Below are positions 564 through 41,239 of a stretch of DNA of 64,000 nt, piece by piece. The translations under genes were made by a program, and so were the position numbers. Every line of letters starts with the position of its first letter. The first letter of the stretch is position 1. The notes under the pieces are model-generated. The model was not told where the DNA came from, did not search any database, and saw nothing but the letters and a program-made list of their open reading frames with translations. Source of the DNA: Desulfosporosinus sp. FKB (lineage in GTDB: Bacteria; Bacillota; Desulfitobacteriia; Desulfitobacteriales; Desulfitobacteriaceae); contig NZ_NADJ01000037.1 of NCBI RefSeq assembly GCF_002196705.1, positions 124,001 through 188,000 on the forward strand, in the 5' to 3' direction.

Positions 564-768
564 TACTTATCACCTCGGAATAAAGGTATCAATTTCCAGG
601 CTTTTTGTCAATATATTTGTACGTACAAAACGAATTATTGTATGAACAAAACTGTGCTTGTTTCTTGAAACTGTTAGTATCCTATAAGGACATAGTACAA
701 GAATTTCAATATTAGCAGTTTAAGAGCCTTGTTCATTACAGACGGACTTCAAAATATGTTTGTTTCTT

Positions 769-798
769 TTGCCTTTAGCACAATTATACTGATATAAT
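769..798 (+). promoter_or_regulatory. Sigma-A promoter of the FMN reductase gene
   Basis: TTGCCT (769-774) and TATAAT (793-798) are separated by 18 bases and sit 40 bases before the reductase start codon, in a gene-free AT-rich stretch. This is a good match to the vegetative consensus. Confidence 0.6.
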
Positions 799-838
799 CT
801 TGCTATATTACAAAATATTTAAAAGGCAGGGTCACAAC

Positions 839-1399
839 ATGAGTAAAATTGTAGCATTTATCGGTAGTCCAAGAAAAAACGGATATACCTCTAAACTAAT
901 TCAGGAAGTAATCAAAGGAGCTCAATCAAAAGGCGCTGAAGTAAAAATCTACGACCTTAACGATGAAGGTATCAAGGGCTGTCAAGGCTGTTTCTATTGT
1001 AGGAGTCATGAAGGCTGCGCTACTAAAGATTATTTACAACCAATGTATGAGGATATAAAAAATGCTGACGGTGTTATTTTTGGCTCACCCATTTATTTCA
1101 TGCAAATCTCAGGACAATCCAAGCAGTGGCTTGATAGAATGTACCCTATGCTTGAAGGCACTGGATTCCCATTCCAAGCCCGTTATCCTGGAAAAAAAGC
1201 AGTTACAATTTTCTCACAAGGAAACGCGAATAAAGATGCGTTTCAAGCTACTATCCAGTTCGTCAATGGTGCCTTCTCCGCGTTCGGTTGGGAGCTTACA
1301 GATAGCTTGCTTTGTTCACATACAGGTTCGCCTGATTTCAGACTCTCGGATGAATTATTAGAACAGGCATTTACTGCAGGAGAGTTACTTACTAAATAA
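839..1399 (+). CDS. Flavodoxin-fold NAD(P)H-dependent FMN reductase
   Basis: 186 aa from the ATG that follows AGGCAGG; an in-frame ATG 39 bases earlier has no ribosome site. The N-terminus carries the flavin-phosphate loop of the family (FIGSPRKNGYTSKL, residues ~6-19). A GCQGCFYCR...GC cysteine patch follows near residue 50, as in iron-sulfur-flavoprotein-like members. GSPIYFMQISGQSKQWLDR is the second flavin-contacting block. Such proteins transfer electrons from NAD(P)H to FMN and onward to quinones, nitro compounds or metals in the cytoplasm; the substrate here cannot be told. It is a single-gene unit with its own promoter and a strong terminator. Confidence 0.88.
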   Translation: MSKIVAFIGSPRKNGYTSKLIQEVIKGAQSKGAEVKIYDLNDEGIKGCQGCFYCRSHEGCATKDYLQPMYEDIKNADGVIFGSPIYFMQISGQSKQWLDRMYPMLEGTGFPFQARYPGKKAVTIFSQGNANKDAFQATIQFVNGAFSAFGWELTDSLLCSHTGSPDFRLSDELLEQAFTAGELLTK

Positions 1400-1447
1400 G
1401 GAATACATTCCTAGTAAATTTTCATTTCCACTTAAAACCAATTCCAT

Positions 1448-1492
1448 CACCGAAATTAGATTCAGTTCTTAATCTAATTTCGGTGGTTTTTT
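1448..1492 (+). terminator. Rho-independent terminator after the FMN reductase
   Basis: A 13-base perfect stem (1448-1460 with 1473-1485, containing CCGAAATTAGA) has a 12-base loop and is followed by a TTTTTT run. It lies ~50 bases after the stop codon. Confidence 0.85.
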
Positions 1493-1564
1493 GTATGTAC
1501 CTAACCAGCGGTTTGATAAGATGTAGAATGAAAGCTCTGGTGTTTTCAAGGTTTCAACATTCAT

Positions 1565-1801
1565 TCAAATCTTATACAAAAACCACTTACAACTACTCAA
1601 TTCGTACTTCAGCTGAAATTGCTTCATTAGCCCGTGAACCTCGCTCTGACACTCATAGACCTTCACACGGTTTCCAGCAAGCTTTTCTTCAGAGATTCTA
1701 ATAATCATCTCAACCTTAACAACATTGCCTTCATGCCGGAAGCGAATCGGACGCGGTGTACCGGGGATATCAAACCATGCTACCATTTCAATGGGAGCCA
1801 T
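1565..1801 (-). CDS. Small conserved protein, second gene of an SOS-type operon
   Basis: 78 aa. Begins MAPIEMVAWFDIPG with GAAGG 5 bases before the chosen ATG; an in-frame ATG at 1813, one base after the upstream stop codon, is an alternative. I recall similar ~80-aa proteins (MxAPIEM..WF...P.PIRFR...EEKLAGN...Y.CQS...C.W.LYKI) in many Firmicutes, but know no proven function. It follows the 53-aa zinc-ribbon gene almost without a gap, so the two are translationally coupled and share the LexA-box promoter. A role in the DNA-damage response is inference from that promoter. Confidence 0.7.
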   Translation of the reverse strand: MAPIEMVAWFDIPGTPRPIRFRHEGNVVKVEMIIRISEEKLAGNRVKVYECQSEVHGLMKQFQLKYELSSCKWFLYKI

Positions 1802-1814
1802 AACGACCTTCATC

Positions 1815-1976
1815 TTAACCACACTTCGCCCAATCACCCGTGATACACTCGGTGCATCCCCCGATATGCAACAGTTTGTTCCGACACACTGGGCATTGAT
1901 CGTGGACAATTAACCATTCTTCGCAGGGTTCCATGCAATACAATTTTCGCCCGCAGTCTTCACAAACGTCTCTCAT
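1815..1976 (-). CDS. 53-aa zinc-ribbon protein
   Basis: An excellent GAGGGGAT ribosome site lies 5 bases before the ATG. The product has eight cysteines arranged CEDC-x5-C-x3-C, then CPVC and CTEC, ending WAKCG, which suggests two small zinc-binding knuckles. It is too short for many gene finders, but the ribosome site, the promoter and the tight junction to the next gene support it. The C-terminal pattern (GGCTEC...GDWAKCG) recalls the zinc-binding tails of ribonucleotide reductases; that is resemblance, not identification. First gene behind the LexA-box promoter. Confidence 0.75.
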   Translation of the reverse strand: MRDVCEDCGRKLYCMEPCEEWLIVHDQCPVCRNKLLHIGGCTECITGDWAKCG

Positions 1977-2012
1977 AGCTATCCCCTCTCAGTACATGTA
2001 TTTGGTATTAAT

Positions 2013-2055
2013 CGAACTTGTGTTCTATTATATCCATATACTGAAGGAATATCAA
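2013..2055 (-). promoter_or_regulatory. Promoter with LexA (DinR) box
   Basis: Read on the minus strand: TTGATA (2050-2055), 17 bases, TATAAT (2027-2032), then immediately AGAACACAAGTTCG (2013-2026), whose GAAC-N4-GTTC core matches the Gram-positive LexA/DinR operator. The operator covers the expected start of transcription, the usual place for LexA repression. It drives the zinc-ribbon gene that starts 37 bases downstream. Confidence 0.75.
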
Positions 2056-2169
2056 TGGAAAATCTTTTCTACTATAATTTTATCAGCTCTCGAAGACAAA
2101 ACGTTGCGGGCTGAACTAACGCTTTTGTACCGTCGGTATCATTATTGACATGGTGACTCTTTTAAGTAT

Positions 2170-2220
2170 AAAAATAAAGCGCTCGCAAGGAAGCAACCTA
2201 ACCCTACGAGCGCTTTATAC
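2170..2220 (-). terminator. Terminator downstream of the serine recombinase pair
   Basis: A perfect 10-base stem (AAAGCGCTCG at 2176-2185 with CGAGCGCTTT at 2207-2216) with a 21-base loop follows the distal recombinase on its strand and is trailed by ATTTTTA. The loop is long for a terminator, so a recombinase-recognition role cannot be excluded. Confidence 0.55.
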
Positions 2221-2227
2221 GTGGATT

Positions 2228-3811
2228 TTACGACTTGACTACCGTACCATCCCTAAAGGTAACCTGAATATTATCTGTAGCGTAGACAGTGACTTTATCA
2301 ATAACCGCAAACCAAAGTTTCTCGTCAAACTCTGTCAAAATAGAATCCTGCTGTAACACCGTATCAAGAAATGTATCCAATTGTTCTCGTTTTATTCGAT
2401 GGGCTTCACGATGATCTTCGTTCTTTTTAATCCCATCCTTAGCCTTCTCATATCGCTTTACAAGTCCATTATAGCGTTGTTGATATTCCAATTGATCCAA
2501 GCCTAAGCGTGAATTCTCATCGACACATTTTCGAATCAGCTCTGTAACCAGGGTAAGCTCGTGATGCAAATCTTCAGTTCGAACATCCAAAGAAGCGGTA
2601 TCCGTCAGCACCCGCTTTATCATTTTACAGTTCTCTATAAGCTCATCTTTATTACTAATCAATTGGTTCATGGAATTCAAAAATAATTGCTTCAGGGTGT
2701 CTTCATAAACATGAGGGGTACCACATTTTTGGGGACCTTTAAACTTATGGTTACATTGCCAAATCGTTCGCCGGTATTTGCTGGTGGAGTGCCAAACTTT
2801 TGAACCAAAGAAACTTCCGCACTCTCCGCAAACGATTTTACTAGAGAAACAGTTTGCCCCACTGTGATGTCCAGCGTTTTCTTTTCGCCGTTTCATCTCA
2901 AATTGGACCATATCGTATACATCCGGCTCAATAATCGCCGGATGACTGTTTTCTACATAATACTTGGGAATCTCTCCCTCGTTAACTTTTTTCTGCTTCG
3001 TGAGAAAGTCTACTGTAAAGGTCTTTTGAAGGAGCGCATCTCCTCTGTATTTCTCGTTGGTAAGAATACTTTCGACCGTACTGACCTGCCATTTCTGTTT
3101 ACCCGACGGAGTTGGAATTCCATTTTGAGTGAGATGATTTGCAATACCTGACGGGGTCTTTCCTTCTAGGAAAAGCCGATAAATCAGCCGTACGGTGGCG
3201 GCTTCTGATTCTACAATCTTTGGCAGACCATCATTACCCTTTTCGTAACCAAGGAACTGCTTATAGGGCAGGCTGACCTTCCCGTCGGCAAAACGCTTTC
3301 GTTGACCCCAGGTTACGTTTTCAGAGATACTTCGGCTTTCCTCTTGTGCCAGGCTCGACATAATTGTGATCAATAGTTCGCCTTTTGAATCGAGGGTAAA
3401 GATATTTTCCTTTTGAAAGTAGACTTCAACGCCTTTTTCCTTGAGTTGACGGACGGTTGTTAACGTATCGACGGTGTTACGAGCAAACCGTGACACCGAT
3501 TTAGTAATAATGAGGTCGATTTTGCCGACAAGGGCATCGGCAATCATCCGTTTGAAGCCATCCCGTTTCTTAGTGCTTGTTGCCGAAATGCCTTCGTCCG
3601 TATAAACAAGGACAAACTCCCAGTTCTCGTTTTCCTGGATATAGCGGGTGTGATAATCAACTTGGGCTTCATAGCTTGAAAGTTGCTCTTCGTTATCCGT
3701 CGAAACTCGGGCGTATGCTGCAACTCGTTTTTTTGCTATGCCCCCAACCTGAAGCGGGGAAAATGCGGAGACTGTTGGTGGTATGATCGTAACTGCTCTT
3801 GCTGCTCTCAT
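2228..3811 (-). CDS. Large serine recombinase (distal of a pair)
   Basis: 527 aa. The resolvase domain spans about residues 27-175, with the catalytic serine in AAYARVS (Ser37) and the active-site arginine block TKSVSRFARN. A recombinase DNA-binding domain follows, then a zinc-ribbon (CGEC...C...C, ~335-375) and a C-terminal coiled coil. These enzymes integrate and excise elements by serine-phosphodiester chemistry. Its ATG overlaps the stop of the upstream recombinase by four bases (ATGA) behind AGGAAGGAA, so the two are co-translated. Paired large serine recombinases recall ccrA/ccrB of SCC elements. The sequence appears intact. Confidence 0.95.
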   Translation of the reverse strand: MRAARAVTIIPPTVSAFSPLQVGGIAKKRVAAYARVSTDNEEQLSSYEAQVDYHTRYIQENENWEFVLVYTDEGISATSTKKRDGFKRMIADALVGKIDLIITKSVSRFARNTVDTLTTVRQLKEKGVEVYFQKENIFTLDSKGELLITIMSSLAQEESRSISENVTWGQRKRFADGKVSLPYKQFLGYEKGNDGLPKIVESEAATVRLIYRLFLEGKTPSGIANHLTQNGIPTPSGKQKWQVSTVESILTNEKYRGDALLQKTFTVDFLTKQKKVNEGEIPKYYVENSHPAIIEPDVYDMVQFEMKRRKENAGHHSGANCFSSKIVCGECGSFFGSKVWHSTSKYRRTIWQCNHKFKGPQKCGTPHVYEDTLKQLFLNSMNQLISNKDELIENCKMIKRVLTDTASLDVRTEDLHHELTLVTELIRKCVDENSRLGLDQLEYQQRYNGLVKRYEKAKDGIKKNEDHREAHRIKREQLDTFLDTVLQQDSILTEFDEKLWFAVIDKVTVYATDNIQVTFRDGTVVKS

Positions 3812-5115
3812 TTATTTTCCTTCCTTCGTTGTAGTTCTCTATCCCGTGCTTGCTGTTTTGAGTCTTCAGTCCACCTCTCAGTTCGAGGCCGGTCTTGCCA
3901 AACTCGTTTGATTTGCTGTCCATCTTGAAAAACAAAAACCAGAGTATTAAACTCTGGCACAATAATTTCTCGTATCACCTTTTTAAAAATCGTCTCATCA
4001 AACTCTGAAAGCCCCAGGACCTCGGCAGTAATGCTAAACAATATTTCGTCGGGGATTTGCTTGGCATGGCAGGCAGCTTTCCCTTCTTTAAGAAAGGTTG
4101 AACAATTCCAGGACACTCTGCCGTGATTAATCTTACGTTTATAGTTTTTGCCACAATGAGGACATCGAATCACCCCTGAGAACGGGTACCGCTGAGTTGT
4201 CGGATGTTTGGCAGCCGCTTTTTTCTTATGGAGTTCATAGATAACCTGTGCCCGTCGAAAGATCTCTTCATTAATAATGCCTTCATGAGTTTCTTGGGCG
4301 TAATACATGGGAAGCTGACCGCGATTCCACTTGAGGATTTTCGTTAGGTGATCCGATACATATCTCTTTTGTAGGAGAGCGTTACCAGCATATTTCTCAT
4401 TTTTGATCATATCGATGATCCGTTTGCTTGACCACTTCCCTCCGAATTTTGTTGCAATCCCCTCAGCTTGAAGCCTGCGGGCGATCGACACGGTACTTTT
4501 GCCGTTAATATAATCATGGAAAACTGAGCGAACAACCTCTGCTTCCTTGGGATCGATTTCCATTTCGCCCTTCACGATACGGTACCCGAACATAAAACGC
4601 AAATTGACGATCTCGCCCTCTTCAAATTGCTTTCGTATCCGCCACTTGAAGTTTTCGCTAACCGAATGGCTTTCCTCTTGAGCAAACGAAGCGAGGATGG
4701 TCAGCATCAGCTCGCCATCCCCGCTAAGTGAGTGAACATTTTCTCGTTCAAAATAAACATCCACATTCATCGCTTTCAACTCTCGGACGACTTCCAGCAT
4801 GGTCACGGTGTTGCGAGCTAAACGTGAAATGGATTTTGTGATCACCATATCGATAAGACCGGCACGACAATCCGCGAGAAGTTTTTGGAATTGTTCTCGA
4901 TCGTCTTTAGTTCCGGTTAATGCCTCATCTGCATAGACACCGACATATTGCCAGTCGGGATGATTCTGAATATAGTCGCTGTAATAGCTGACCTGAGCCG
5001 AGAGCGAATGGAGCATGGCATCTTTGTTGCTGGAGACTCGGGCATAGGCAGCCACACGCTTTTTCTTAGGCAGAATCGGCTTTGTGGGTGTCACGAGCTT
5101 GATGATTCGTTCCAT
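3808..5115 (-). CDS. Large serine recombinase (proximal of a pair)
   Basis: 435 aa from ATG at 5115, which has AGGAGGG six bases upstream; an ATG 24 bases earlier lacks a site. Catalytic serine in AAYARVS (Ser28), then TKSISRLARN and EESHSVSEN typical of the resolvase fold. A recombinase domain follows at ~165-265 and a zinc-ribbon (CPHCG...C) at ~325-350. Shorter than its partner because the C-terminal coiled coil is reduced. The paralogues differ clearly in sequence, so this is not a recent duplication and the two may act as a heteromer. Confidence 0.95.
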   Translation of the reverse strand: MERIIKLVTPTKPILPKKKRVAAYARVSSNKDAMLHSLSAQVSYYSDYIQNHPDWQYVGVYADEALTGTKDDREQFQKLLADCRAGLIDMVITKSISRLARNTVTMLEVVRELKAMNVDVYFERENVHSLSGDGELMLTILASFAQEESHSVSENFKWRIRKQFEEGEIVNLRFMFGYRIVKGEMEIDPKEAEVVRSVFHDYINGKSTVSIARRLQAEGIATKFGGKWSSKRIIDMIKNEKYAGNALLQKRYVSDHLTKILKWNRGQLPMYYAQETHEGIINEEIFRRAQVIYELHKKKAAAKHPTTQRYPFSGVIRCPHCGKNYKRKINHGRVSWNCSTFLKEGKAACHAKQIPDEILFSITAEVLGLSEFDETIFKKVIREIIVPEFNTLVFVFQDGQQIKRVWQDRPRTERWTEDSKQQARDRELQRRKENK

Positions 5116-5174
5116 AGAAAGCCCTCCTTTCAGTATCACATACTACCGCGACTACCTATATATAGCAAGCACAA

Positions 5175-5336
5175 TTAAGAACACAACGCTATTAATGGGC
5201 GATATTTTTCAAGCAGCATTTGGTTGATGATCTTGAATTCGTGCACAGTAATTAAGCCTTTCTGCAGCATGGCTTTAGCAATACACAGTGTAATATGGTA
5301 GGTCATTTCACGATCGAATTGTTCTGGTGTCATCAT
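5175..5336 (-). CDS. SHOCT-like small protein upstream of recombinases
   Basis: 53 aa (begins MMTPEQFDREMTYHITLCIA). The pattern 'AKAMLQKGLIT..EF..IN.MLLEKY.P' is the short SHOCT-like helix pair often found just before serine recombinases in Clostridia-type elements (established context, my recollection). AGAGGAG precedes it, and its ATG shares one base with the stop codon of the upstream gene (TAATG). Possibly an oligomerisation or recombinase-partner peptide; function unproven. Confidence 0.75.
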   Translation of the reverse strand: MMTPEQFDREMTYHITLCIAKAMLQKGLITVHEFKIINQMLLEKYRPLIALCS

Positions 5337-5773
5337 TATGTCTTCTCCTCTCCATGTGACTGTTTCATAAATCGAGCTTTGATATAGCACTCATGATTGC
5401 AGTATTTTCGCTTCTTATTTCCGTAACTTACAAACGACCTTCCGCATCCCACACATACAAAATGGTAGGCTGACTCTTGATTAACCACGTCATTATGGTG
5501 ATTCCACCAAGTCATACGGCATTTATCCGAACAGAATTTACGCCGCTTCCTACCAGGCTGATGCTCTAATGACTTGCCGCAGTTTGGGCAGAGATTCAGA
5601 GCTTGTAGTTCATCCGTCACTTTTTGGTCAGTAACAAGAATACCGCCTAGGTTATTTCTCTGGCAGTAAGATTTAATGGTATTTTCCGATATGCCAAGGC
5701 GATCAGCTATCTTTGAGTAGCTCTTGCCCTCGTTACGCATACGTTGTATGCATTCCTTTTGAAACAACGTCAT
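5336..5773 (-). CDS. HTH plus double zinc-finger protein of the element
   Basis: 145 aa; AAGGAG nine bases before ATG. Residues ~1-40 form a sigma-like/transposase-type helix-turn-helix (GKSYSKIADRLGISENTIKSY). Then come two zinc-finger modules: CPNCGKSLE..CSDKCRMTWW (~62-90) and CVGCGRSFV..CNHECY (~107-130). The combination marks a DNA-binding regulator or recombination accessory factor. It begins a four-gene overlapping run with the SHOCT-like gene and both recombinases, so it is likely to regulate or assist excision. Confidence 0.75.
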   Translation of the reverse strand: MTLFQKECIQRMRNEGKSYSKIADRLGISENTIKSYCQRNNLGGILVTDQKVTDELQALNLCPNCGKSLEHQPGRKRRKFCSDKCRMTWWNHHNDVVNQESAYHFVCVGCGRSFVSYGNKKRKYCNHECYIKARFMKQSHGEEKT

Positions 5774-5799
5774 CGCGTTAATCTCCTTCGCACAAAGAG

Positions 5800-5831
5800 T
5801 AAGACCCGCAGAAATTACTCCGCAGGTCTCA
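5800..5831 (-). terminator. Possible attenuating hairpin before the recombinase operon
   Basis: AGACCTGCG (5821-5829, minus strand) can pair with TGCGGGTCT (5802-5810) using G-U pairs. The following T-run is weak. It separates the terminase gene from the recombinase operon and could end the upstream transcript partly. Confidence 0.35.
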
Positions 5832-5907
5832 CATTCGTGTTCGTTTATTCGATTACAATTCTAATAGTTAAATCCAATTTAAATTTTTTCTTCTATTATA
5901 ATAGGCT

Positions 5908-6408
5908 TCATATGTCGCCGAACCTCTTTTCAAAATCTGTCAGGGGTTTTGGCTCATCCTTTGGCGTTGCTAATTTAAGTCTTGCAAAGGGTGTCAGCCC
6001 AAAGTCCGCGCAGTATCGTTTGTAAATATCACTGTATTTATTAGCAATCGCCACATACGGGTTAGGGACCACATTTTTATTCCCACCTTTGTTAGTATAG
6101 GTCACTAACATTCCGTGTTTATCAATTTCCTGATAGGCCTTTAGGAATTTAGAATAGGCATCGCAGCAAATTGCCAAGGCCCCGACGTCCACATTGGTGA
6201 GAAGGTCCAATTCCAGCAACTCTTTGCTTAGAATCGCCCAGTGAGCTTTAGCCTCATCATCAAGCCAGTCTGGGCATTCCACGTTGTCTGCCTTGGGAAC
6301 ATATTTTGATTCCAATCGTTCACGCGCCTTGATTTCTGCTTTCGTTAAATGACTAGGATTTCCCCGTACAAGGTGGATTTTAAGTGGTTTCATTTGATTT
6401 TGTGCCAT
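5908..6408 (-). CDS. terS: Phage terminase small subunit, P27 family
   Basis: 166 aa from the ATG behind AGGGGAG. The whole length fits the P27/terminase_4 family: KIHLVRGNPSHL near the N-terminus, CPDWLDDEAKAHW (~47-59), LLTNVDVGALAICCDAY (~72-88), PNPYVAIANKYSDIYKRY and a GLTPFARLKL end. TerS recognises packaging sites and feeds DNA to the large terminase. No large terminase, portal or capsid gene is near, so a lone terS beside a primase-helicase and an iteron cluster resembles phage satellites that redirect helper packaging. Alternatively it is a leftover of a decayed prophage, though the reading frame is intact. Confidence 0.88.
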   Translation of the reverse strand: MAQNQMKPLKIHLVRGNPSHLTKAEIKARERLESKYVPKADNVECPDWLDDEAKAHWAILSKELLELDLLTNVDVGALAICCDAYSKFLKAYQEIDKHGMLVTYTNKGGNKNVVPNPYVAIANKYSDIYKRYCADFGLTPFARLKLATPKDEPKPLTDFEKRFGDI

Positions 6409-6585
6409 GATAAATACTCCCCTTTTTACATTATCGAACAATCAATCTATCGAGGAAATTTTAGTTTATCCCCCCGAGGGTCCCAGCCCGAAGTTTTTAC
6501 GAGGTTTTGGCTGCTTTGGTCCAGCTGTAAAAAGTTGGCAAGAATTCGACCCCCTTTACCCCCTTCGGCTAATCCAAACTTTAGG

Positions 6586-6918
6586 TTAATGAATATTATT
6601 TCCTTTTTGGGTAACTCCATTGACTCTGGGTATTTTAACTGATTGAGGTTTATAGAGTATCTGATCTTTGTTTAACAAACATCTCTCAAAATCAATATCG
6701 AGTACTAATACCTTGTAGCGTATGTGATCCGATGGCAACCCAAGTCTCTCTTGCATAAAGGTTGCGCAATCTAATGCTTGTTCAAAAGTTAAAATATCTG
6801 GAAATGTGTGACTTCCGTTACCGGTTATGGTCACTTGACAACCAGTTTTACAAGGAGCTAGGTCTATATCAATAAATATATCTTTTTTAAGGGTACGTTT
6901 AAGTCCAGTTTTAGTCAT
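6586..6918 (-). CDS. Unrecognised protein of the mobile element
   Basis: 110 aa with AGGAAGGA ten bases before the ATG. A basic N-terminus (MTKTGLKRTLKKDIFIDIDL) is followed by a beta-rich CKTGCQVTITGNG segment and LTFEQALDCATFMQERLGL. No family recognised. It lies between the iteron cluster and terS on the same strand, so it may belong to the replication/packaging module. No catalytic motif is visible. Confidence 0.6.
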   Translation of the reverse strand: MTKTGLKRTLKKDIFIDIDLAPCKTGCQVTITGNGSHTFPDILTFEQALDCATFMQERLGLPSDHIRYKVLVLDIDFERCLLNKDQILYKPQSVKIPRVNGVTQKGNNIH

Positions 6919-6945
6919 CTCTGTTTATCCTTCCTTTCTAATATA

Positions 6946-7227
6946 GCGGGTAATACAAGAATGTTTGCGGGATTTGTTTTTTAATACCCGCAGCCCAAAG
7001 GCACTCGCCACAAGGGATTGCGGTTTGCGGGTATTGGCGGAATTGATTCGCTTCCCTTAGGGGTCTTATACATCTACGCGCACCCTCCTGCTTCTCTCAC
7101 ATATCAAACCTCTAAGGAAGGAAAAGAATACCCGCAAATACCGCAAATGGTTCAAACCCGCATCATTACCGTGTTTGCGTTGCGCGGTTTGCCGCGGGTA
7201 TTGGTTTCCCAATACCGCAAATCCCGC
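6946..7227. repeat. Iteron-like cluster, putative replication origin
   Basis: Short repeats in both orientations: GCGGGTAAT (6946), TTTGCGGGATTT (6964), AATACCCGCA (6983), TTTGCGGGTATTGGCGG (7024-7040), AATACCCGCAAATACCGCAAAT (7127-7148, two units), AAACCCGCA (7154), TTTGCG/TTGCGCGG (7174-7187), GCGGGTATTGG (7194-7204) and AATACCGCAAATCCCGC (7211-7227). The two recurring units are CGGGTATT and TTTGCGG. The cluster lies immediately 3' of the primase-helicase, the position of the origin in SaPI-type satellites. Origin function is inference. Confidence 0.6.
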
Positions 7228-7233
7228 TAAGTC

Positions 7234-9807
7234 TTAAGTTAGAAAATCATCTTCCTCGAATACATTATCAGTGAATGAGGATTCCAATAGATACTTTTTT
7301 TGTTTAGTATGGGAATCATAATTTTCATTTAGACGAATTCCGGCTTCAGCTAAATTACTCCTAACCTGCTTCAACCTTTTTGCTAATCCTTTAGCGCTTC
7401 GTGGCCAACTCCATGCCTTCACGTCGATTCCAACTCCATAGGCGATCTGGTTTAAAACAACTAGCAAATCCCCCGCAGTTCCCGCCCATTGTTGTTTGGA
7501 ATTCATAAGCGACACTATTGCTATAGCCACTGGGTTTCCTGTCAAGGCTTCATCGTTAGCACTTTGCCGATTTGCCTCAAAGGCATTAATAAACTTTTCA
7601 CCCCCACCTTGATACAGTGCTTCACCAATGGCATAACCCCATTTGGCAAAATCAGCCATTCTTGGGAGCTTGTTCAGTTTGACGCTTTGATAGATTTTCA
7701 TAGCATCTGCTAGAACCTGGAACATTGCGCCTATAATCTTTGGTCTGACTTCCTCAAATGACCGCCAAAATTCTGATTCGCTAATACGTTGGTCTTCAGA
7801 TATCCGCCGTAACTCAAAAAGGATTGCTCGATCCAGTAAATCCGGCCTTGTCGCTGGTTCATTAATCCCATTTAAGGATATACAGCGGCGGAAACTCAGA
7901 ATGATTTCATCCGAATCTGTATATAATTCTCTTTTTGAAATACCGCCCCCCGTAGCTGCAACACAGAGAATATCAGATACTGTACCGGATAGACCATCTA
8001 AGTTATCAAAACTCGGCATCCAGTTTTTCGAGAGCAATAAAGCGAGTTCGCTCGTATCTTTCGGCATTAGCTGAAGTTCCTGAATCGCCGGATCAATCAA
8101 TTTGCGCCGGATTTTCATAACCGTGGACTTAGACGCGCCCTTTTCATCATGCCAAATAGCTACTGCATGAGGAATACCGGGAATCAAACAACTAATCAAC
8201 TCTACAATAAAAAGCAATTTTTGCCCTTCATCAGATAAATTTACTAGGTCCAATACCTTAAGAATTTCCGTTCCTTTAACTCGCTCCGGTATTACCTGCG
8301 CTGCCGTATTCGCTGCTTTACTAAACAGAGGTAGAGGCTTGTCCACAATCTTCCACGAGCCAGGTTCGATCTTGATGGCTTGCCAATCGTCGTTCGCTAA
8401 GTCATACCAGAAAGCGCCGTCCCGTTCAGCTACGCGTAGTGACAATTCAATTTTAAGTCCTTCAAACCTTGCCTTTGCTTCAAGAACACCTAATGCCTGC
8501 CTCAGAGCATCTGGAGAAATTGCTTTCCCGGTAGCTTGATAGAATTGTCCTGAAAGCCATAATTTAACTGCTTTTGCTTTTGTCGGCCAGGTTTCGGTAT
8601 GGCCTTTCACCGGAAATCGAATATAAGTGGCAGACGCTGAATCATGGAAAACTTCAATATCGATGGCATTGATTAATTCTAAAAGAATATCCGCCTGACT
8701 TTGTTTGACGGATTTAGCTTCCTTACCTTGCCTCGACTTATCAGATGTCGTTAATCGTATCGACTGACTAGCCAATACAACAGGGCTTTTCACATTTTTA
8801 GTACACTTTTCACAATAACCCGGAAATTCAACCCTTATACGTTGACAGGTTGCCGGCCCAGCATCATTCATAGCGTGGAGGATTTTACGGTCTGTCTCTT
8901 GCCGATTGTAGTTAGGATAAGGCTGGCTGATATTGTGGGCGAGATCCACACCTTTATTCAAGCGAGCTAAAACTGAAATGGCAGCATACCACTCTGGTTC
9001 CGCTAAGGTTTCAGCATCATCCCGACAATGGCGAAGAAACGCACAATCGTTAAAAATGCTGTGCTCTACCCTATCCCTACCACCGGTAGAATCCCTAGAA
9101 TCTTTGGTGGTTATATCCACAACGAGTTTCATGTCTACAAGTTGCTGAATGTTATACTTTCTTTCTGGTTCAAAGACTAAAATTCGCACGGGTATGGGCG
9201 TATCGCCTTTGCAGTTCATGGTCCCTGGCAAACGAAGGACTCTCGTTAGATCTGAAGTGTTGTCAAGCTTCCACCCGCGTTCAGCATAGTCCTTGATAAA
9301 TCGTTGTTGCCACAAACGAGACATGTCTTGCGCCTTTTGCCGATCATCCTTACTCTCAAAGATCCAAGGCTTGTCGAAAAGCCAGTAGCAATGCATCCCA
9401 CCACCCGAAAAGATAATAATCGATGGCTGATAAGGTAACGACTCCAACCATTCCCAAGCTTCATCAAAGGTCGGTAAGTTCTTCTGTTTATGGTAACCAC
9501 CCTTACAATCAATATCACAATACAAACAGGTCATGGAATAAACACTGGTTAACGTTCCACGTTCATTCCCAGAGAGTACTTTGACTTGAGGACAGACGGG
9601 AAAATAAATATCTTGGAATTGTCCAAGCCTAACTGCCGCTTCCGCTATATTCCGGTGCTCTGCTAGTGGCCGCCAGAGGGTTTTCTTTTTCTTCAGTAAC
9701 CAAATATAAGTGTATCCTTCCATCTCACCATAAATAGCCTGAAGGAACCTTAGGATTTCTGAAACTGCGTCTCCACTTGGTATCATTGATTCTGTCTCGA
9801 TCAACAA
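7234..9807 (-). CDS. Archaeo-eukaryotic-type primase fused to a replicative helicase
   Basis: 857 aa; TTG start with GAGGTG just upstream. N-terminal PrimPol-like domain: metal-binding CDIDCKGG (98-100 DID), SGGGMHCYWLF (134-144) and R-LPGTMN (~190). Residues ~300-540 form a linker. The ATPase domain has a Walker A variant WHDEKGASKST (~555), a Walker B-like PSFDNLDG (~600) and a sensor SLNGI. It would synthesise primers and unwind DNA to replicate the element. Similar fused proteins occur in phage satellites, plasmids and SCC-like elements (cch-type). Full length, with the presumed origin directly downstream. Confidence 0.9.
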   Translation of the reverse strand: MLIETESMIPSGDAVSEILRFLQAIYGEMEGYTYIWLLKKKKTLWRPLAEHRNIAEAAVRLGQFQDIYFPVCPQVKVLSGNERGTLTSVYSMTCLYCDIDCKGGYHKQKNLPTFDEAWEWLESLPYQPSIIIFSGGGMHCYWLFDKPWIFESKDDRQKAQDMSRLWQQRFIKDYAERGWKLDNTSDLTRVLRLPGTMNCKGDTPIPVRILVFEPERKYNIQQLVDMKLVVDITTKDSRDSTGGRDRVEHSIFNDCAFLRHCRDDAETLAEPEWYAAISVLARLNKGVDLAHNISQPYPNYNRQETDRKILHAMNDAGPATCQRIRVEFPGYCEKCTKNVKSPVVLASQSIRLTTSDKSRQGKEAKSVKQSQADILLELINAIDIEVFHDSASATYIRFPVKGHTETWPTKAKAVKLWLSGQFYQATGKAISPDALRQALGVLEAKARFEGLKIELSLRVAERDGAFWYDLANDDWQAIKIEPGSWKIVDKPLPLFSKAANTAAQVIPERVKGTEILKVLDLVNLSDEGQKLLFIVELISCLIPGIPHAVAIWHDEKGASKSTVMKIRRKLIDPAIQELQLMPKDTSELALLLSKNWMPSFDNLDGLSGTVSDILCVAATGGGISKRELYTDSDEIILSFRRCISLNGINEPATRPDLLDRAILFELRRISEDQRISESEFWRSFEEVRPKIIGAMFQVLADAMKIYQSVKLNKLPRMADFAKWGYAIGEALYQGGGEKFINAFEANRQSANDEALTGNPVAIAIVSLMNSKQQWAGTAGDLLVVLNQIAYGVGIDVKAWSWPRSAKGLAKRLKQVRSNLAEAGIRLNENYDSHTKQKKYLLESSFTDNVFEEDDFLT

Positions 9808-9867
9808 AACACCTCATTTTCTACCTTGTTTTATTTTGCAGAGACTGTCTTCCAAATTCTAAAGCCC

Positions 9868-9902
9868 ATAAAAAATGGGCCACTCTTCATCTGAGCAGCC
9901 CG
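9868..9902 (-). terminator. Hairpin between the antirepressor-like gene and the primase
   Basis: GGGCTGCTC (minus strand, 9901-9893) pairs with GAGTGGCCC (9885-9877) with two G-U pairs, followed by ATTTTTTA. It starts about 11 bases after the upstream gene's stop and may attenuate transcription into the primase gene. Confidence 0.55.
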
Positions 9903-9912
9903 ATATTCTACA

Positions 9913-10254
9913 TTACATTCTTGAATTAAAAACTTCGTCCAAGACATCCAAACGATACGTGCGAAGATTACCTAAGTCTGGGTCAGCGAATTTTTCAATG
10001 GGTATCTCTAATTTCTCGCTGAGCCATACAACCCTTTGTTCTATACCATAAACTTCACTAACATCAACCTTAAAGCCACGAAGACTACAGTAGCCAGCAA
10101 TCGTAAAATAGGTAACAGGCTCCGTTTCTACCTTGGCGGCTAATCTTTTAATTTCTTCATCTTGCTGATACATTGTTTGTCGAATTTCTTTTGAAGATTG
10201 TAAGGAGGCAATGAGTATATCTTCGAGGCATGTTTGCTTATTTAGTGTTTTCAT
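9913..10254 (-). CDS. Small antirepressor-like protein
   Basis: 113 aa with AGGAGAACTC upstream of the ATG. A coiled-coil-prone N-terminus (~1-45) leads into FTIAGYCSLRGFKVDVSEVYGIEQR...LRTYRLDVLDEVF, a pattern I associate with phage antirepressor-type C-terminal modules that bind DNA or repressors. It sits between a small basic gene and the primase in the early-gene position, which fits a regulator of element induction. Family assignment is tentative. Confidence 0.55.
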   Translation of the reverse strand: MKTLNKQTCLEDILIASLQSSKEIRQTMYQQDEEIKRLAAKVETEPVTYFTIAGYCSLRGFKVDVSEVYGIEQRVVWLSEKLEIPIEKFADPDLGNLRTYRLDVLDEVFNSRM

Positions 10255-10356
10255 ATATTTGAGTTCTCCTTTGTAGACTGAATTTATTGTGGTATAATTT
10301 AAATTAAGAGATAACTTATTGCCCTCGGCCTGCTAGCCCGGGTAATTTTTTTTTGC

Positions 10357-10575
10357 CTAAAAATGAACACTCTTCAATTCCCGACGCAACTGCTCGATCC
10401 CCTTTTGAAGTCCTTCCTTTAATCGTTCTGTGTCTTTACTTGTTCGTGGCGAATATGGCCAGAATGTTGTTGGGCTATATAACTCCTCAATGTCCTGCTC
10501 GTATCTTGCTAGAGCCTTTTTCTTGCGATTAATGGAACCCTTTTGCTTTTTACGGGCACGTATTTCCAGATTCAA
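10357..10575 (-). CDS. Small basic protein, first gene of the replication operon
   Basis: 72 aa if translation starts at the TTG nine bases after AAGGAGG; a GTG 30 bases earlier has no good site. Very rich in Lys/Arg (EIRARKKQKGSINRKKKALA), then a Pro/Tyr-rich middle (YSPTTFWPYSPR) and a helical end. No family recognised. The basic character suggests nucleic-acid binding; its leading position next to the divergent control region fits an early regulator. Confidence 0.5.
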   Translation of the reverse strand: MNLEIRARKKQKGSINRKKKALARYEQDIEELYSPTTFWPYSPRTSKDTERLKEGLQKGIEQLRRELKSVHF

Positions 10576-10687
10576 GGTTAATAACCTCCTTTGTTTTTTA
10601 GCCACGTTCTCTTTTCTGTTAAATACTAATGGCGGGGGGATTTAATTGTCAAAGAACATAATGACTTAGCGAAAACCTCAACGTCAT

Positions 10688-10809
10688 AGTTAATCGTTGT
10701 TTCGATTAACTATTATCTATAATAGTGTTTTCTTGACTGCTCGTCAACGATATGCGATAATAATTATACGACTTATGTATTATCTATTTTTTGAGCATTA
10801 ACTATTATC
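10688..10809. promoter_or_regulatory. Divergent control region with operator-like repeats
   Basis: An inverted repeat AGTTAATCG-N6-CGATTAACT (10688-10711) and two copies of ATTAACTATTATC (10705-10717 and 10797-10809) lie between the leftward replication operon and the rightward DUF6076 gene. A promoter for the rightward gene, TTGACT (10733-10738), 17 bases, GATAAT (10756-10761), lies between the two repeat copies. This is the layout of a repressor-controlled early switch; which protein binds is unknown. Confidence 0.5.
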
Positions 10810-10826
10810 AAATTGGAGTGATTTGA

Positions 10827-11756
10827 GTGGATGCTGTATTAGCATTTTATGGCCCGAATGAGTTTTTCATCTACGATGGTGGAACTATAGTTAATCCTAT
10901 AGGAACCAATTTTATCGATTTCATCGAACTAGATTCCATGAATGAGTTAGCAAACTATACTTCTATGAGCAATCCCTACTTTAAATTATTTGAGAACTAT
11001 AGCGAGTTCGAACGTAATACGAATTATATAATTGAAACCATTGATTACTTTAAAGATGCAGCAAGAATTGTTTTGTCTACAGAAATTGATGAACTTAAAG
11101 ATTTAGACACTGATGCGAGATGTTATTTATTCGAACAATGTTTTCATAAAGATTTTTTTCAGACTAAGATCAACCATTATTTTGCATGGGTTTTTTCGGA
11201 AGATCATCCGCAACCAGATCCTACAGAAGCAAACAAATTGGGTACAGTAGTCCTTGATTTTAATAATAAAGAACAATGTCATGAAATCTTTAAGACTTTG
11301 GCAGATAGTGTTAAAGAATCCGTAATACAAGTAAATGAACAATTTCATGTACAAAATCTTAAAGAAGCTCTATTTGTGTCTTTTATGCACATGGTTAAAA
11401 ACCAAGTAGTTCTGAAAAAATGCAAATGCTGCGGAAAGTATTTCATTCCCACTGGAAGGGCAGACAAAGAATATTGTGATAGAATTGCGCCTAATTCCAG
11501 TAAGACTTGCTATGAAGTAGGATCTATAAAAAAATATCATGAAAAGACTAAGAGCAACCCAGTATTACAATTATTTCAAAAAGAATACAAAAAAATTAAC
11601 GCTAGAATTAGAGCAAAAAGGATTACACAGGAGCAATTCTTTAATTGGTCAACTAGTGCCCGTTCTTTAAGAGATGAAGCGGTAAGTAAAGATTTAAGCG
11701 TTGAAGAATTCAAACAGAAACTAGATGAACTTACAACCGAAATTTTGAGTAAATAG
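10827..11756 (+). CDS. DUF6076-like protein with a cysteine cluster
   Basis: 309 aa; GTG start with TTGGAG eight bases upstream. The N-terminal two thirds are acidic and helical without motifs. Residues ~198-230 hold KCKCCGKYFIPTGRADKEYCDR...SKTCYE, a zinc-binding knuckle as in DUF6076 and 'CGNR-like' proteins. The C-terminus is helical and basic. It is transcribed away from the replication operon, like master repressors of phage satellites, but no helix-turn-helix is visible. Ends in a strong terminator. Function unknown. Confidence 0.75.
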   Translation: MDAVLAFYGPNEFFIYDGGTIVNPIGTNFIDFIELDSMNELANYTSMSNPYFKLFENYSEFERNTNYIIETIDYFKDAARIVLSTEIDELKDLDTDARCYLFEQCFHKDFFQTKINHYFAWVFSEDHPQPDPTEANKLGTVVLDFNNKEQCHEIFKTLADSVKESVIQVNEQFHVQNLKEALFVSFMHMVKNQVVLKKCKCCGKYFIPTGRADKEYCDRIAPNSSKTCYEVGSIKKYHEKTKSNPVLQLFQKEYKKINARIRAKRITQEQFFNWSTSARSLRDEAVSKDLSVEEFKQKLDELTTEILSK

Positions 11757-11769
11757 AGTATCGATCACG

Positions 11770-11803
11770 AAAGGCTCAGCAGTTTGTACTGCTGAGCCTT
11801 TTA
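11770..11803 (+). terminator. Strong terminator after the DUF6076-like gene
   Basis: AAGGCTCAGCAG and its complement CTGCTGAGCCTT enclose a short loop (TTTGTA region) and end in TTTT. It marks the probable right border of the element's recognisable genes. Confidence 0.85.
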
Positions 11804-12067
11804 CATATTTTGGGGCGTATACGTTTGATTTTTCGATTTCTGTGATGATTTCAAAAACCCTAGCACCCAGTATTCATGGAGGTTTTAGATTTCCTATACC
11901 CCTTTTGAAAGTGCGAAAATTTGCATCTGGCTGAACATCCGGTAATGTTTTCAAAAGCCACAGCTATTTAACCCCCCTAGCCCCCTTCACCTCAGCCACC
12001 TGCCTAATTGAACATTTCATTTTGAAGGCTCAACCCTATCCCTAATATCCAACTACCAACTGTGCCA
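11804..12067. other. Gene-free stretch right of the mobile element
   Basis: No reading frame with a ribosome site is seen. The sequence contains C-rich tracts (CCCCCCTAGCCCCC near 11970) but no repeat that I could match to the left side, so a recombinase attachment site cannot be named. Confidence 0.4.
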
Positions 12068-12070
12068 TAA

Positions 12071-12474
12071 GCTGCCCTTTTTATTCCCTATGAATTGAAA
12101 CCTGAAGAACAGAGGCTTTATGAAGATTGGGAGGCCGACGAATATAACCTAAACGTCTTGACCTTTACAAAACCAAACCCCTCCCCACCTGTAAAACCTG
12201 CGGAAACACCAATTTTTCACCTGCTGCAAGGTTTTGCAATATTTGTGGTACAGAGGTCAATAAGTTTACCACTAGAGGGATATTGCGCATTGTTTATTCG
12301 AAATTAACCAATGACAAAAACATCTGCCAATCCGGCCACTGGAATGACCGGAATGCCCGCTATTGTGATTTCTGCGGAGAGCCGACTTCCTTTATCGAAA
12401 GTTTACCTGCTTGTCAGTTGCAACGAGATAAATACATTAAGTCTTTGGTACAATTAGATTTCCAGAAAAAATAA
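12071..12474 (+). pseudogene. Double zinc-ribbon protein, frameshifted
   Basis: One frame reads ...LFIPYELKPEEQRLYEDWEADEYNL to about 12150. A frame two bases on then reads KRLDLYKTKPLPTCKTCGNT...RFCNICG...CQSGHWNDRNARYCDFCGEP to the stop at 12474. The two CxxC pairs per ribbon are intact, so the break looks recent. There is no clear start codon or ribosome site, so the 5' end is probably also missing. Original function unknown. Confidence 0.5.
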
Positions 12475-12486
12475 TTAATATATTAT

Positions 12487-12729
12487 CTACAGTCCGTTAG
12501 CTTTGCCATTTATTTTTATTTTAGGAACCAGAGAGAATTTATGATTAAGTTCTAACTTCATAGCTAGCATATGCTCCGTACCATTTTCTGTACGATTGAA
12601 ACCGAATCTTCGCCAGAAGTTTGCGGCTCTAATATTTTGCGCACGTAAATAAATTACATGGAAATCTGTTTGAGACAACTCTTTCCAAGGTACTTGGTTA
12701 CTTATAATGAAACCGGGAATGTAAATCGT
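12487..12729 (-). pseudogene. C-terminal fragment of a GNAT acetyltransferase
   Basis: The reading frame contains FHVIYLRAQNIRAANFWRRFGF, the characteristic beta5-alpha4 end of GNAT enzymes (N..A..FW...GF), and is open only from a stop at 12730. The acetyl-CoA binding loop (R/Q-x-x-G-x-G/A) is absent. No ribosome site is seen. It is a remnant. Confidence 0.55.
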
Positions 12730-12750
12730 TTAAAGACAGTCTTGCTGAGC

Positions 12751-14049
12751 CTATGAATAACTATTGGGCACTTCATGCAAATAGTAGTATTTACCATCTT
12801 TTATAATAATCTGAACATCTTTGTCATATACCTCTTCAGGTTTATTAATCATTAATTGACTTTGTGTTGTTTGAGCATATATTTTTTTCCCCAGTCCATC
12901 CTCAAGCCCCCTATAATTTAAATTATCATCAATAAAACCGGGTATTGACGCAAAGAAACCTTCAATGCCTTTTTTGCTTCTTCGGTTCTTATTAACATCA
13001 ATGCCATGCGACTCCACTTGTTTTTTATGCCATTCTTCTAATGCCGCCCTTATCTGATTTGATTGTTCCATATATGCGTTAAATATTGAATAACTCATCT
13101 CATTTGAGTTTTCTCCTTTACCAAGTAGATATGTCAACTTACTGATTTCTTCTAATACTGTCATCAATATTTGTTGATATTCGAGCAAAAGCCTGAAGTC
13201 ATCTACTTTTTCTTGATACTCCCTGTAATCTGGTTTTTGATTTTTCTTTATTATTTCGTCGATAGCTAAATTAATCTGCTGAAGTAATTGAGTTCCTTCT
13301 CTCTCTAAATCATCTAAAGTATGCAGTTTTCGGTTTCGCAAATCATCGCTTTCCAAAATTTCCGAACTAAAATTAGATATTTTCCCCACTAAAGCAATCA
13401 ATGATAGAATCCGACTTTTAAATTCTCTCTCTTGAAAATCACTAATCTTATTTACACTCTTGCTTAAAGCTTCAATCTTGGAATTAATTTCTGACATATA
13501 GTATTGACCAACAACCAAAGAGCCAACATTCATTACATTTGCAACACCATTAGCTACCGTGGTAGCTTTAGAAATTTTCGTAGGGTCTACTTTAACTAAA
13601 TTTGCTTGTCCCTTAATTCCTTTTGCTCCTCGATAAAAACCTCGCACAGCGCCTTCCATTTGTTTAGATTCTGCAAGGGTAGCACCACTGGGGATAACCG
13701 CCTTGTATAATTCAACATTTTTAAGTGCTTTGTTTGTGATTGTTTTTGCTACGGTTTCTGCTGCGGTCGGTATTGTCTCTGAAATTCGAGCAATTACTGT
13801 ATGGTCAGTAATTTCAAACAGACTCTTTTCCTCAATTTTAGTCGTCGCAGATAGTCGTTCTATAGGTATAGTTATTCCGTCTCTTTGCACACGTTCTACC
13901 TCAAGTCCTTCAGAAGTAGTTGAAGCAGATTTTTCAGCACTTAGAACATCATTGCCATTGAAAATAGCTTTTCTTCTTGAATGAATTACTAAGACAACAA
14001 TTAAAGCAACGATTATTATTGTTAATATTACTACCAGCAAAATATCCAT
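12751..14049 (-). CDS. Membrane-anchored coiled-coil protein of unknown function
   Basis: 432 aa from an ATG with GGGAGG eight bases upstream. Residues 1-22 are one strong membrane helix (MDILLVVILTIIIVALIVVL) followed by HSRRK, so the bulk is cytoplasmic. The middle has an amphipathic/glycine-rich block (GFYRGAKGIKG...VANVMNVGSLVVGQYY, ~140-200), then ~150 residues of predicted coiled coil. The frame stays open upstream through a DUF3883 relic, so readthrough would fuse the two; the ribosome site argues that the membrane protein starts on its own. No homologue recognised. Its place beside a defence island suggests, but does not show, a defence role. Confidence 0.65.
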   Translation of the reverse strand: MDILLVVILTIIIVALIVVLVIHSRRKAIFNGNDVLSAEKSASTTSEGLEVERVQRDGITIPIERLSATTKIEEKSLFEITDHTVIARISETIPTAAETVAKTITNKALKNVELYKAVIPSGATLAESKQMEGAVRGFYRGAKGIKGQANLVKVDPTKISKATTVANGVANVMNVGSLVVGQYYMSEINSKIEALSKSVNKISDFQEREFKSRILSLIALVGKISNFSSEILESDDLRNRKLHTLDDLEREGTQLLQQINLAIDEIIKKNQKPDYREYQEKVDDFRLLLEYQQILMTVLEEISKLTYLLGKGENSNEMSYSIFNAYMEQSNQIRAALEEWHKKQVESHGIDVNKNRRSKKGIEGFFASIPGFIDDNLNYRGLEDGLGKKIYAQTTQSQLMINKPEEVYDKDVQIIIKDGKYYYLHEVPNSYS

Positions 14050-14051
14050 GA

Positions 14052-14513
14052 TTTCATCCTCCCAACCGGGTGTCGAATTGACAACGTATCGTGTAGTTAT
14101 CTCCAACAAGCTAAATTTCGAATTGCAAAAACGGTCTTCGCCATCGGCATAATAAAACAAATCTGCGAGTCGATAGATTTTTCGTTCGTCATCACTCATT
14201 ACTGCAGTCACCAAAACAACCTCATATTGTTGCGGGTGTTCTTCGGCAAAGTTCAGTTCATTTTCTGTAATTACAAATGAAATTCCCGTCCCGGCAGTGG
14301 ACTTTATTTCAACATAAACAGTTTCGCCCTTTTCGTTGGTATACTTTAGGTCATAACCCAAACCGCCAATACCATCTGGGTTGACCCCCACTTTTTTTCG
14401 TTTTCCGAAACCCATAATACATTCTGGAAGTCTGATTTCATTTGTTCGTATACGAGTTTTTCGGCAAATGCACCCCAATCTGAGATATTACGTTCTCGCT
14501 TCATTCCCGCCAT
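14052..14513 (-). pseudogene. DUF3883-domain protein fragment with a frameshift
   Basis: From ATG 14513 (MAGMKRERN) the frame reads ISDWGAFAEKLVYEQMKSDF...VLWVSENEKK, then breaks in a run of seven A/T bases (14392-14398). The neighbouring frame continues VGVNPDGIGGLGYDLKY...VYVEIKST...FVITENELNFAEE. Together these are one DUF3883 domain (nuclease-like fold; VEIKST resembles the ExK of PD-(D/E)XK enzymes). DUF3883 usually ends larger restriction or defence proteins, so this is the 3' end of a lost gene. It has lost its stop and runs in frame into the membrane protein. Confidence 0.6.
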
Positions 14514-14572
14514 ACGGCTTCCAGTGCTATTCTGGCGTCAATCAAAATTTTAGAGCATTGGTATTATAAAGA

Positions 14573-14598
14573 AGCGGCACAACAGTAATCGTGCCGCT
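14573..14598 (-). terminator. Terminator of the TfoX/YjbQ unit
   Basis: AGCGGCAC (14573-14580) and GTGCCGCT (14591-14598) form an eight-base perfect stem with a ten-base loop, about 20 bases after the TfoX-N gene stop, followed on the minus strand by TCTTTATAAT. Confidence 0.6.
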
Positions 14599-14617
14599 CC
14601 AAAAGTTAACCTATTGA

Positions 14618-19804: not shown

Positions 19805-19820
19805 TAAATCACCTCAGTAT

Positions 19821-28064: not shown

Positions 28065-28067
28065 AAC

Positions 28068-35038: not shown

Positions 35039-35039
35039 T

Positions 35040-41203: not shown

Positions 41204-41239
41204 AATATGAAGTATGCACAAATCCTTTGTGTAGGAGAT

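Follow-up and report, generated by a model that had tools for sequence, protein, structure and literature searches.

Phage-inducible chromosomal islands (PICIs) are characterized, in PMC6092414, by an integrase, a divergent control region, a primase-replication gene followed by an origin, a small terminase (TerS) and/or a cos site, and no structural genes. The criteria listed there are a conserved arrangement of integrase, replication module and master regulator, no structural or lytic phage genes, a size of ~12-15 kb, a unique attachment site not used by prophages, phage-dependent induction, and specific packaging into phage particles. The cos-type staphylococcal pathogenicity islands (SaPIs) such as SaPIbov5 form a known comparison class (PMC5052747), and tyrosine integrases are given as typical of satellites (PMC10690885). 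Here, a window of 64 kb (G000:C31:124001-188000, the whole stretch of DNA analyzed) from the 5.1 Mb genome of Desulfosporosinus sp. FKB (Desulfosporosinus genus group) was compared with these systems. It contains an element of ~10 kb, first marked at 2228-11756, whose status as satellite or remnant is judged here from sequence alone. We consider it probable, though far from assured, that the element is a helper-dependent phage satellite of the cos/TerS type, PICI-like in plan and with a phage serine-recombinase module.

Serine integrases on satellites have precedent, so the element is not a new kind in this respect. The PLE satellites of Vibrio cholerae carry a large serine recombinase whose directionality factor is helper-encoded (PMC6002521). 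According to PMC6092414, they are larger and lack recognisable modules for replication or packaging, whereas the present element has putative modules of both kinds. Candidate PICIs with a serine integrase have also been reported in Mycobacterium (PMC10654092), but these were selected for a major capsid gene, and the element has no capsid gene and two recombinases. A literature search (most subscription journals outside its scope) found no Desulfosporosinus phage satellite and no satellite combining a serine recombinase, terS and a primase.

The element resembles PICIs and cos SaPIs in having integration genes, a divergent control region, a primase followed by a probable origin, TerS with a cos-like region and no structural gene among the proteins scanned, and with its probable ends it would be of roughly similar size. 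Classical PICIs use tyrosine integrases, and in place of one integrase the element has two serine recombinases from a phage module. It also differs in having no recognised repressor, xis or interference gene, in having both TerS and a cos-like region, and in the position of its integration genes, which lie at the far end of the leftward operon and not beside the candidate regulator DUF6076. All genes of the element are on the minus strand except the DUF6076 gene and an ImmA remnant. The order of transcription is orf82, orf113, primase-helicase, iteron cluster, orf110, cos-like region, terS, HTH-zinc, SHOCT, LSR2 and LSR1. By coordinate, the features are:

2228-3811, minus strand: LSR1, a large serine recombinase (LSR) of 527 aa (PF00239, PF07508, PF13408; phrog_95 integrase, 4.9e-148)
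3808-5139, minus strand: LSR2, a large serine recombinase of 443 aa (PF00239, PF07508, PF13408; phrog_95, 2.8e-119)
5175-5390, minus strand: small SHOCT-domain protein (PF20612, 9e-21; phrog_2996)
5336-5773, minus strand: HTH and zinc-finger protein (phrog_2308, 1.2e-48; 142 phage records)
5908-6408, minus strand: P27-family small terminase TerS (PF05119, phrog_83, TIGR01558), with no large terminase (TerL) alongside
6492-6569, minus strand: cos-like packaging-site region upstream of terS, containing GGGGGTAAAGGGGG at 6550-6563
6586-6918, minus strand: orf110, with no family match and no relative among the loci compared
~6946-7230, minus strand: iteron cluster, probable replication origin, directly downstream of the primase gene
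7234-9807, minus strand: primase-helicase of 857 aa, with a primase-type N-terminal part and a C-terminal helicase part that we take to be D5-like
9913-10254, minus strand: orf113, an early gene with relatives in the element G001:C26 and the prophage G006:C6
10357-10605, minus strand: orf82, first gene of the leftward operon, 65% identical in G001:C26
10606-10826, no strand assigned: divergent control region, with an operator-like palindrome at 10686-10713 and repeated half sites
10827-11756, plus strand: DUF6076 protein (PF19553, 5e-26)
12151-12474, plus strand: truncated 3' remnant of an ImmA/IrrE phage gene (73% DNA match to L230:8792-9122)

Of the ten proteins encoded at 2228-11756, scans with Pfam and PHROGs identified none as TerL, structural or lytic (0/10), and none as a relaxase or transfer protein. 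For the remainder of the window the translations were read, and ten of those proteins were scanned for defence families only. All ten scanned genes at 2228-11756 are open, and the ImmA remnant alone is truncated. The TerL, portal and capsid of a complete temperate phage were absent (Pfam, PHROGs and a TerL profile), as were the own capsid, portal and TerL of capsid-forming PICIs (Pfam and PHROGs). The lack of structural or lytic phage genes required of PICIs was observed for the ten proteins.

Most of what an earlier note on this DNA had described was borne out: a lone P27 small terminase, a primase-helicase with an adjacent repeat cluster, a divergent control region, two overlapping large serine recombinases (sharing 4 nt) and no structural phage genes. 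The genes that it placed at 2228-11756 are real, and the right limit probably lies further right. Its 'antirepressor-like' gene, for which no reading frame was specified, was not confirmed: orf113 has no family match in Pfam, PHROGs or NCBIfam and a poor structure model (mean pLDDT 55), and 10827-11756 encodes the DUF6076 protein. New here are the kinship of TerS to prophages together with the cos-like region, the assignment of the recombinases to a phage module and not to staphylococcal cassette chromosome (SCC) elements, the recurrence of the replicon, and the extension of the right end.

The start of terS at 6408 was picked from its prophage relatives, the ORF being open to 6441. The longer ORF (5908-6441) matched PF05119 (5e-26) and phrog_83 (1e-47), TerS scored 78.9 bits against the TIGR01558 cut-off of 45.6, and no TerL was found with the TerL profile in the 3.3 kb around terS. 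Members of Desulfosporosinus are anaerobic spore-forming sulfate reducers, and 6 of 29 genomes of the genus, own genome included, contained a TerS match. TerS was 69-73% identical to the TerS of three prophages (G021:C4, G021:C16 and G006:C6), in each of which terS adjoins a PF03354 TerL. For G021:C4 the TerL, portal, protease, capsid, HNH, endolysin, repressor, ImmA and integrase genes were all confirmed. G021:C16 and G006:C6 were judged to be prophages from TerL, HNH and ORFs read by eye, their portal, protease and capsid genes included. Besides TerS, these prophages share with the element the sequence preceding terS (a significant match in G021:C4 alone), the ImmA end gene (G021:C4) and orf113 (G006). 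They differ in carrying TerL and in their replication genes, which gave no match to the primase-helicase of the element in the stretches read; the LSR of G021:C4 is of another type, ~26% identical to LSR1. The dN of terS was 0.19, 0.21 and 0.23 between the element and the three prophages, 0.18 between G021:C4 and G021:C16, and 0.07 between G021:C16 and G006, with synonymous sites saturated in four of these five comparisons. Because terS of the element diverges hardly more than the terS genes of G021:C4 and G021:C16 do from each other, it does not appear to be freely decaying.

In the phylum, PF05119 was present in 58 of 398 genomes. TerL was found beside terS (local TerL profile) in 26 of the 30 P27 loci examined, namely that of the window and 29 others; the four without TerL are the window, G171 (terS with an in-frame stop), G377 and G258. 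Eleven further, weaker P27 places were read, with TerL in seven and none in four (G347, G450, G218 and G256). A P27 TerS without an adjacent TerL is unusual. The surroundings of terS include a tyrosine integrase and a tape-measure gene in G377 and a protease-capsid gene in G258; since these lone terS genes stand near phage genes, the lack of an adjacent TerL is compatible with a remnant no less than with a satellite. The G377 locus (L385:6328-15114) also showed a G-rich motif upstream and an excisionase-like gene. In G258 (L386:9958-12821), the gene after the PF05119 place joins a head maturation protease to a region that is weakly capsid-like. A tyrosine integrase gene lies close by, TerL is not adjacent, and the presumed terS ORF had no PHROG match.

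The 78 bp at 6492-6569 are likely a cos region and are called cos-like here. Compared with the gap between the HNH gene and terS in G021:C4, this region gave a local score of 51 (shuffle maximum 26; 0/1000 shuffles reached 51), and blastn gave an E-value of 2.5e-4 for the same similarity. The HNH-terS gaps of the three prophages match one another at scores of 53-64. An HNH gene lies shortly upstream of terS in 3/3 prophages, with one intervening ORF in G006:C6, and an HNH gene beside cos is a feature of staphylococcal cos phages. The element has no HNH gene, yet the region upstream of terS was kept. Comparison of this region with the Geobacillus phages NIIg3.2 and E2 was not significant (51/1000 and 148/1000 shuffles). 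The motif GGGGGTA-N0-3-GGGGG had six distinct occurrences in 4,147,949 bases, a total in which overlapping loci were counted repeatedly. Four of the six were just upstream of a P27 terS (the element, prophage G021:C4, G377 and G312), a count favoured by some stretches having been fetched as terS loci. The motif was also seen in the viral contig L339, 0.6 kb past a primase gene, and in L260, where no terS was seen.

The primase-helicase showed weak PHROG primase matches (phrog_2478, 2.5e-17), no Pfam match (DUF927 included) and no PDB relative at E 0.1, and its helicase half was aligned with relatives. Single-query searches of IMG/VR with the primase-helicase, TerS and DUF6076 proteins found no relatives by that method. 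Matches to the primase-helicase were present in 8 of the 29 genus genomes (own included). Two others were close (range seen 77-84% identity): G025 matches in the helicase half (83%) and G001 in the primase half (78%), a division that points to mosaics. The iteron cluster is marked by TGCGGGTATT-like words, as 4 of the 12 in the window fall in a 220 bp span inside the cluster and 3.0 would be expected across the entire 64 kb. The origin region matched that of G025 at 72% DNA identity over 373 bp, primase 3' end included, and such words were abundant in both. Single-strand folding of the cluster was better than that of shuffles (z -4.6). The dN/dS values were 0.10 (against G025) and 0.23 (against G001) for the primase parts, and 0.40 for orf113 and 0.17 for orf82 (both against G001). 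These values speak against long neutral decay, although they partly reflect a history in common with functional relatives. A truncated copy of LSR1 on contig C4 of the same genome likewise has a dN/dS of 0.11, and the measure is therefore no guide to whether a copy remains active.

Parts of this replicon recur in the elements of G025 and G001, and no structural protein was found among the proteins scanned there (nine in G025, and those of G001), the remaining ORFs being read by eye. After its replicon, the G025:C46 element (Desulfosporosinus sp. MAG_BO295) carries a TerS that belongs to a different family (phrog_309, 6e-38), and then an LSR pair. This element is like ours in its helicase part, iteron origin, possession of a TerS and paired LSRs, but differs in the family of its TerS, in its LSRs (36-50% identical) and in extra phrog_6329 and amidoligase genes. 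In G001:C26, relatives of orf82, orf113 and the primase half are followed by other genes, one LSR and dynamin-like genes. The G001 locus (L013:3082-16967) further contains a DUF3987 helicase half, a phage-type repressor and one serine recombinase, and its two dynamin-like genes (one with a Dynamin_N match, one by eye) are possibly defence cargo. In G005, a DUF927-type primase and a phrog_309-type TerS were found at a contig end; as this TerS is cut by the contig end, it is uninformative on TerL.

The integration module, of which LSR1 is the last gene, was compared with viral contigs. LSR1 relatives in IMG/VR were 51-69% identical, and 80 of 95 viral loci were kept. A relative of the HTH-zinc protein accompanied LSR1 relatives in 70/80 of these loci and a relative of the SHOCT protein in 40/80, and the recombinases thus belong to a common phage module. 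No relative of this TerS, the G025 TerS or the primase-helicase was detected in the 47 LSR1-type viral loci whose upstream sequence spans at least 6 kb (0/47; tblastn, 1e-4). The module directly after terS is therefore not the usual phage arrangement.

In the control region, a perfect 11+11 bp inverted repeat was found at 10686-10713, ATTAACTATTATC is repeated, and promoter-like sites overlap on both strands; the promoter-like matches in the scanned region numbered 28, not above the 25.0 in shuffles. A role of 10606-10826 as a switch is plausible. On its left, orf113 is 80% identical in G001 and 48-50% identical in the G006 prophage, where its relative follows repressor- and cro-like ORFs (read by eye). 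On its right, the DUF6076 protein is by position only a candidate for the regulator of the element, and its structure model was poor (mean pLDDT 45). In L146/L304 and L300, weak DUF6076 relatives face away from the helicase operon. A DUF6076-like gene divergent upstream of the same helicase type occurs in Fervidicola and a related genome, effectively one case and at 18.7 bits below the Pfam cut-off of 23.5. Two weak matches were obtained when plasmids were searched for DUF6076. At the place of the DUF6076 gene, G001 has a phage-type repressor divergent from orf82.

The right end of the element is probably at the ImmA remnant, ~12474, beyond the earlier limit of 11756. The remnant is a zinc-ribbon tail with 63% protein identity over residues 179-286 only, and no match to the ImmA peptidase part was found at 10501-14600; the intact ImmA gene has PF06114 and a double zinc ribbon. 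A frame break in the remnant was considered and dropped, as residues 179-286 matched in one frame. The left end is weakly placed just past LSR1, since 10/80 viral contigs end within ~100 bp past a near full-length LSR1 relative, a count that leaves out four matches stopping short of the LSR1 end. Ends near 2150 and 12480 would give a size of ~10.3 kb. The flanks were searched with 1-2220, 40600-43500 and 10606-14620 as queries, the best ten candidates per genome being scored, and matches in relatives were short and dispersed. A complete prophage at the locus, which the earlier note had named as grounds for rejecting its reading, was not seen in the 29 genus genomes, and neither were both flanks side by side (match tables; flanks from both sides). 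Because the locus was recognised in no relative, this search has little power.

The anatomy supports the satellite half of the PICI/SCC hybrid that the earlier note had proposed: an integration module, an own replicon with origin-like repeats, a divergent control region, TerS with a cos-like region, and no structural gene among the proteins scanned. In a satellite, the leftward operon would be kept repressed at the control region during the integrated state, possibly through the DUF6076 protein, and a helper phage of the G021/G006 type would relieve this repression. The recombinase pair would excise the element, aided by a directionality factor from the element or the helper, and the primase-helicase would replicate the circle from the iteron origin into concatemers. 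TerS of the element, with TerL and the HNH nuclease of the helper, would cut the cos-like site and fill helper capsids, and the paired recombinases would integrate the DNA in a new host. We infer induction, excision, replication, packaging, the role of the DUF6076 protein and the ends from the sequence. A true satellite would extend phage satellites to Desulfosporosinus, with a plan built around a paired serine-recombinase module, and would add one with its own TerS and cos-like region together; phages of the G021:C4 type are offered as the predicted helpers.

A further proposal, which is possible but put forward only tentatively, is that the element represents an undescribed satellite lineage of Clostridia-type phages. 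Such a lineage would combine a plasmid-like replicon, exchangeable packaging cassettes (cos with P27 TerS here, phrog_309 TerS in G025) and a two-LSR phage cassette. TerS and cos would be kept together, the element supplying the recognition protein and its site to the TerL of the helper.

Several observations weigh against a satellite. Compared with the other two prophages, 6492-6569 gave scores of only 23 (45/1000 shuffles) and 17 (592/1000), and the C-rich core seen in the prophage gaps is altered in the element. No PF03354 TerL was found in the own genome (other TerL families were not sought), so no helper of that kind is at hand. Among the genes of the element, none was identified as a repressor with a known DNA-binding domain. 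The comparison of empty sites that the earlier note had suggested yielded neither an empty site nor an attachment core repeat in the flank searches of the 29 genus genomes. The stretch 705-3346 is duplicated at G000:C4 (L213:7877-10518, 93% identical), where the copy takes in a flavodoxin-type reductase gene, a zinc-ribbon gene and, of LSR1, only the C-terminal residues 154-527, and breaks off inside LSR1; this duplication of the left flank indicates rearrangement. The truncation of ImmA may signal partial decay of the element. Finally, phage relatives were found for TerS and its upstream region, for orf113, for the integration module and for ImmA, a pattern that a stripped prophage would also show.

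The main alternative is a defective prophage, which we consider rather unlikely. One deletion, running from TerL to the lysis genes, would have brought the early genes, cos-terS and the integration module next to each other, and in a second event DUF6076 would have replaced the repressor and most of ImmA. Such an element would have no life cycle of its own, but may be packaged accidentally through the cos-like site. The order of early genes, cos and terS followed by the integration module is the product expected of such a deletion, the ImmA remnant, orf113 and terS have relatives in genus prophages, the module from HTH-zinc and SHOCT to LSR2 and LSR1 is phage-type, and the TerS of G377 stands without TerL near a tape-measure gene, as in a deletion. 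However, no phage record covered 80% of the primase-helicase, the matches listed (20 of 65 records) being 28-34% identical over at most 38%, and parts of the replicon are found again in elements where no scanned protein is structural. The open state of the ten scanned genes also speaks against a deletion product, and no complete prophage was seen at the locus in the 29 genomes, in a search of little power. As the HNH gene upstream of the prophage terS is missing too, more than one deletion would be needed. Satellites may arise from pared-down prophages, so the two readings overlap, and a remnant would be a clear example of a prophage pared toward a satellite.

It is quite improbable that the element is an integrative plasmid-like one, driven by the primase-helicase and iterons and moved by the recombinases, with terS as a passenger. 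The primase-helicase was matched in 34 of 398 genomes of the phylum, and its helicase type in 31 plasmid records. Relatives' loci were taken from the best 79 of 235 genome candidates and from 35 viral loci. In the 141 primase-helicase loci scanned with local profiles (some loci doubled, that of the window excluded), many had serine or tyrosine recombinases, P27 TerS was found in three (weak), and phrog_309-type TerS was found in G025 and G005 only, other TerS families not having been sought. In favour of this reading, helicases of this type abound in integrated elements and rarely pair with a P27 or phrog_309-type TerS. A passenger terS fits poorly, however, with the apparent maintenance of TerS and of a cos-like region beside it, and with G025, where a TerS from a different family lies between the replicon and the recombinases. 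The scan of the ten proteins also gave no relaxase or transfer gene.

The other half of the hybrid in the earlier note, an SCC-like cassette with Ccr recombinases that acquired phage genes, is hardly credible: the serine recombinases are paired and CcrB is the best NCBIfam match of both, but the Ccr scores for LSR1/LSR2 are a sixth of the cut-offs or less (CcrB 149.8/133.9 against 900, CcrA 70.9/78.6 bits against 700, CcrC 89.6/96.4 against 900), relatives of the recombinases stand in viral contigs with the same neighbours, and the helicase has no DUF927 match, the DUF927/Cch type being seen instead in the relative L102. As judged by these cut-offs, the claim of membership in the SCC family is refuted and kinship at the superfamily level stays. 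SCC elements insert at the 3' end of rlmH.

Other observations were made in the own genome. Contig C8 (L215:858-9920) has a prophage end with holin/amidase-, tail- and lysis-like genes (by eye), and the paired serine recombinases of L215 are 71-79% identical to the G025 pair. A helper with another TerL family may lie on this prophage end. To the left of the element, 1565-2113 is a short zinc-ribbon gene region with several dispersed copies in the own genome and most genus genomes, some of them near serine recombinases (L215, L234 and L237). To the right, between the ImmA remnant and a defence island, 12487-12740 is an apparent C-terminal fragment of a GNAT acetyltransferase (by eye), possibly a host gene cut by insertion. 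The defence island (12751-39939) contains a type I restriction-modification system (16478-22416), Wadjet JetA, JetC and JetD (22780-29480), and a Septu-like PtuA with a PDC-M01B partner (34196-36581).

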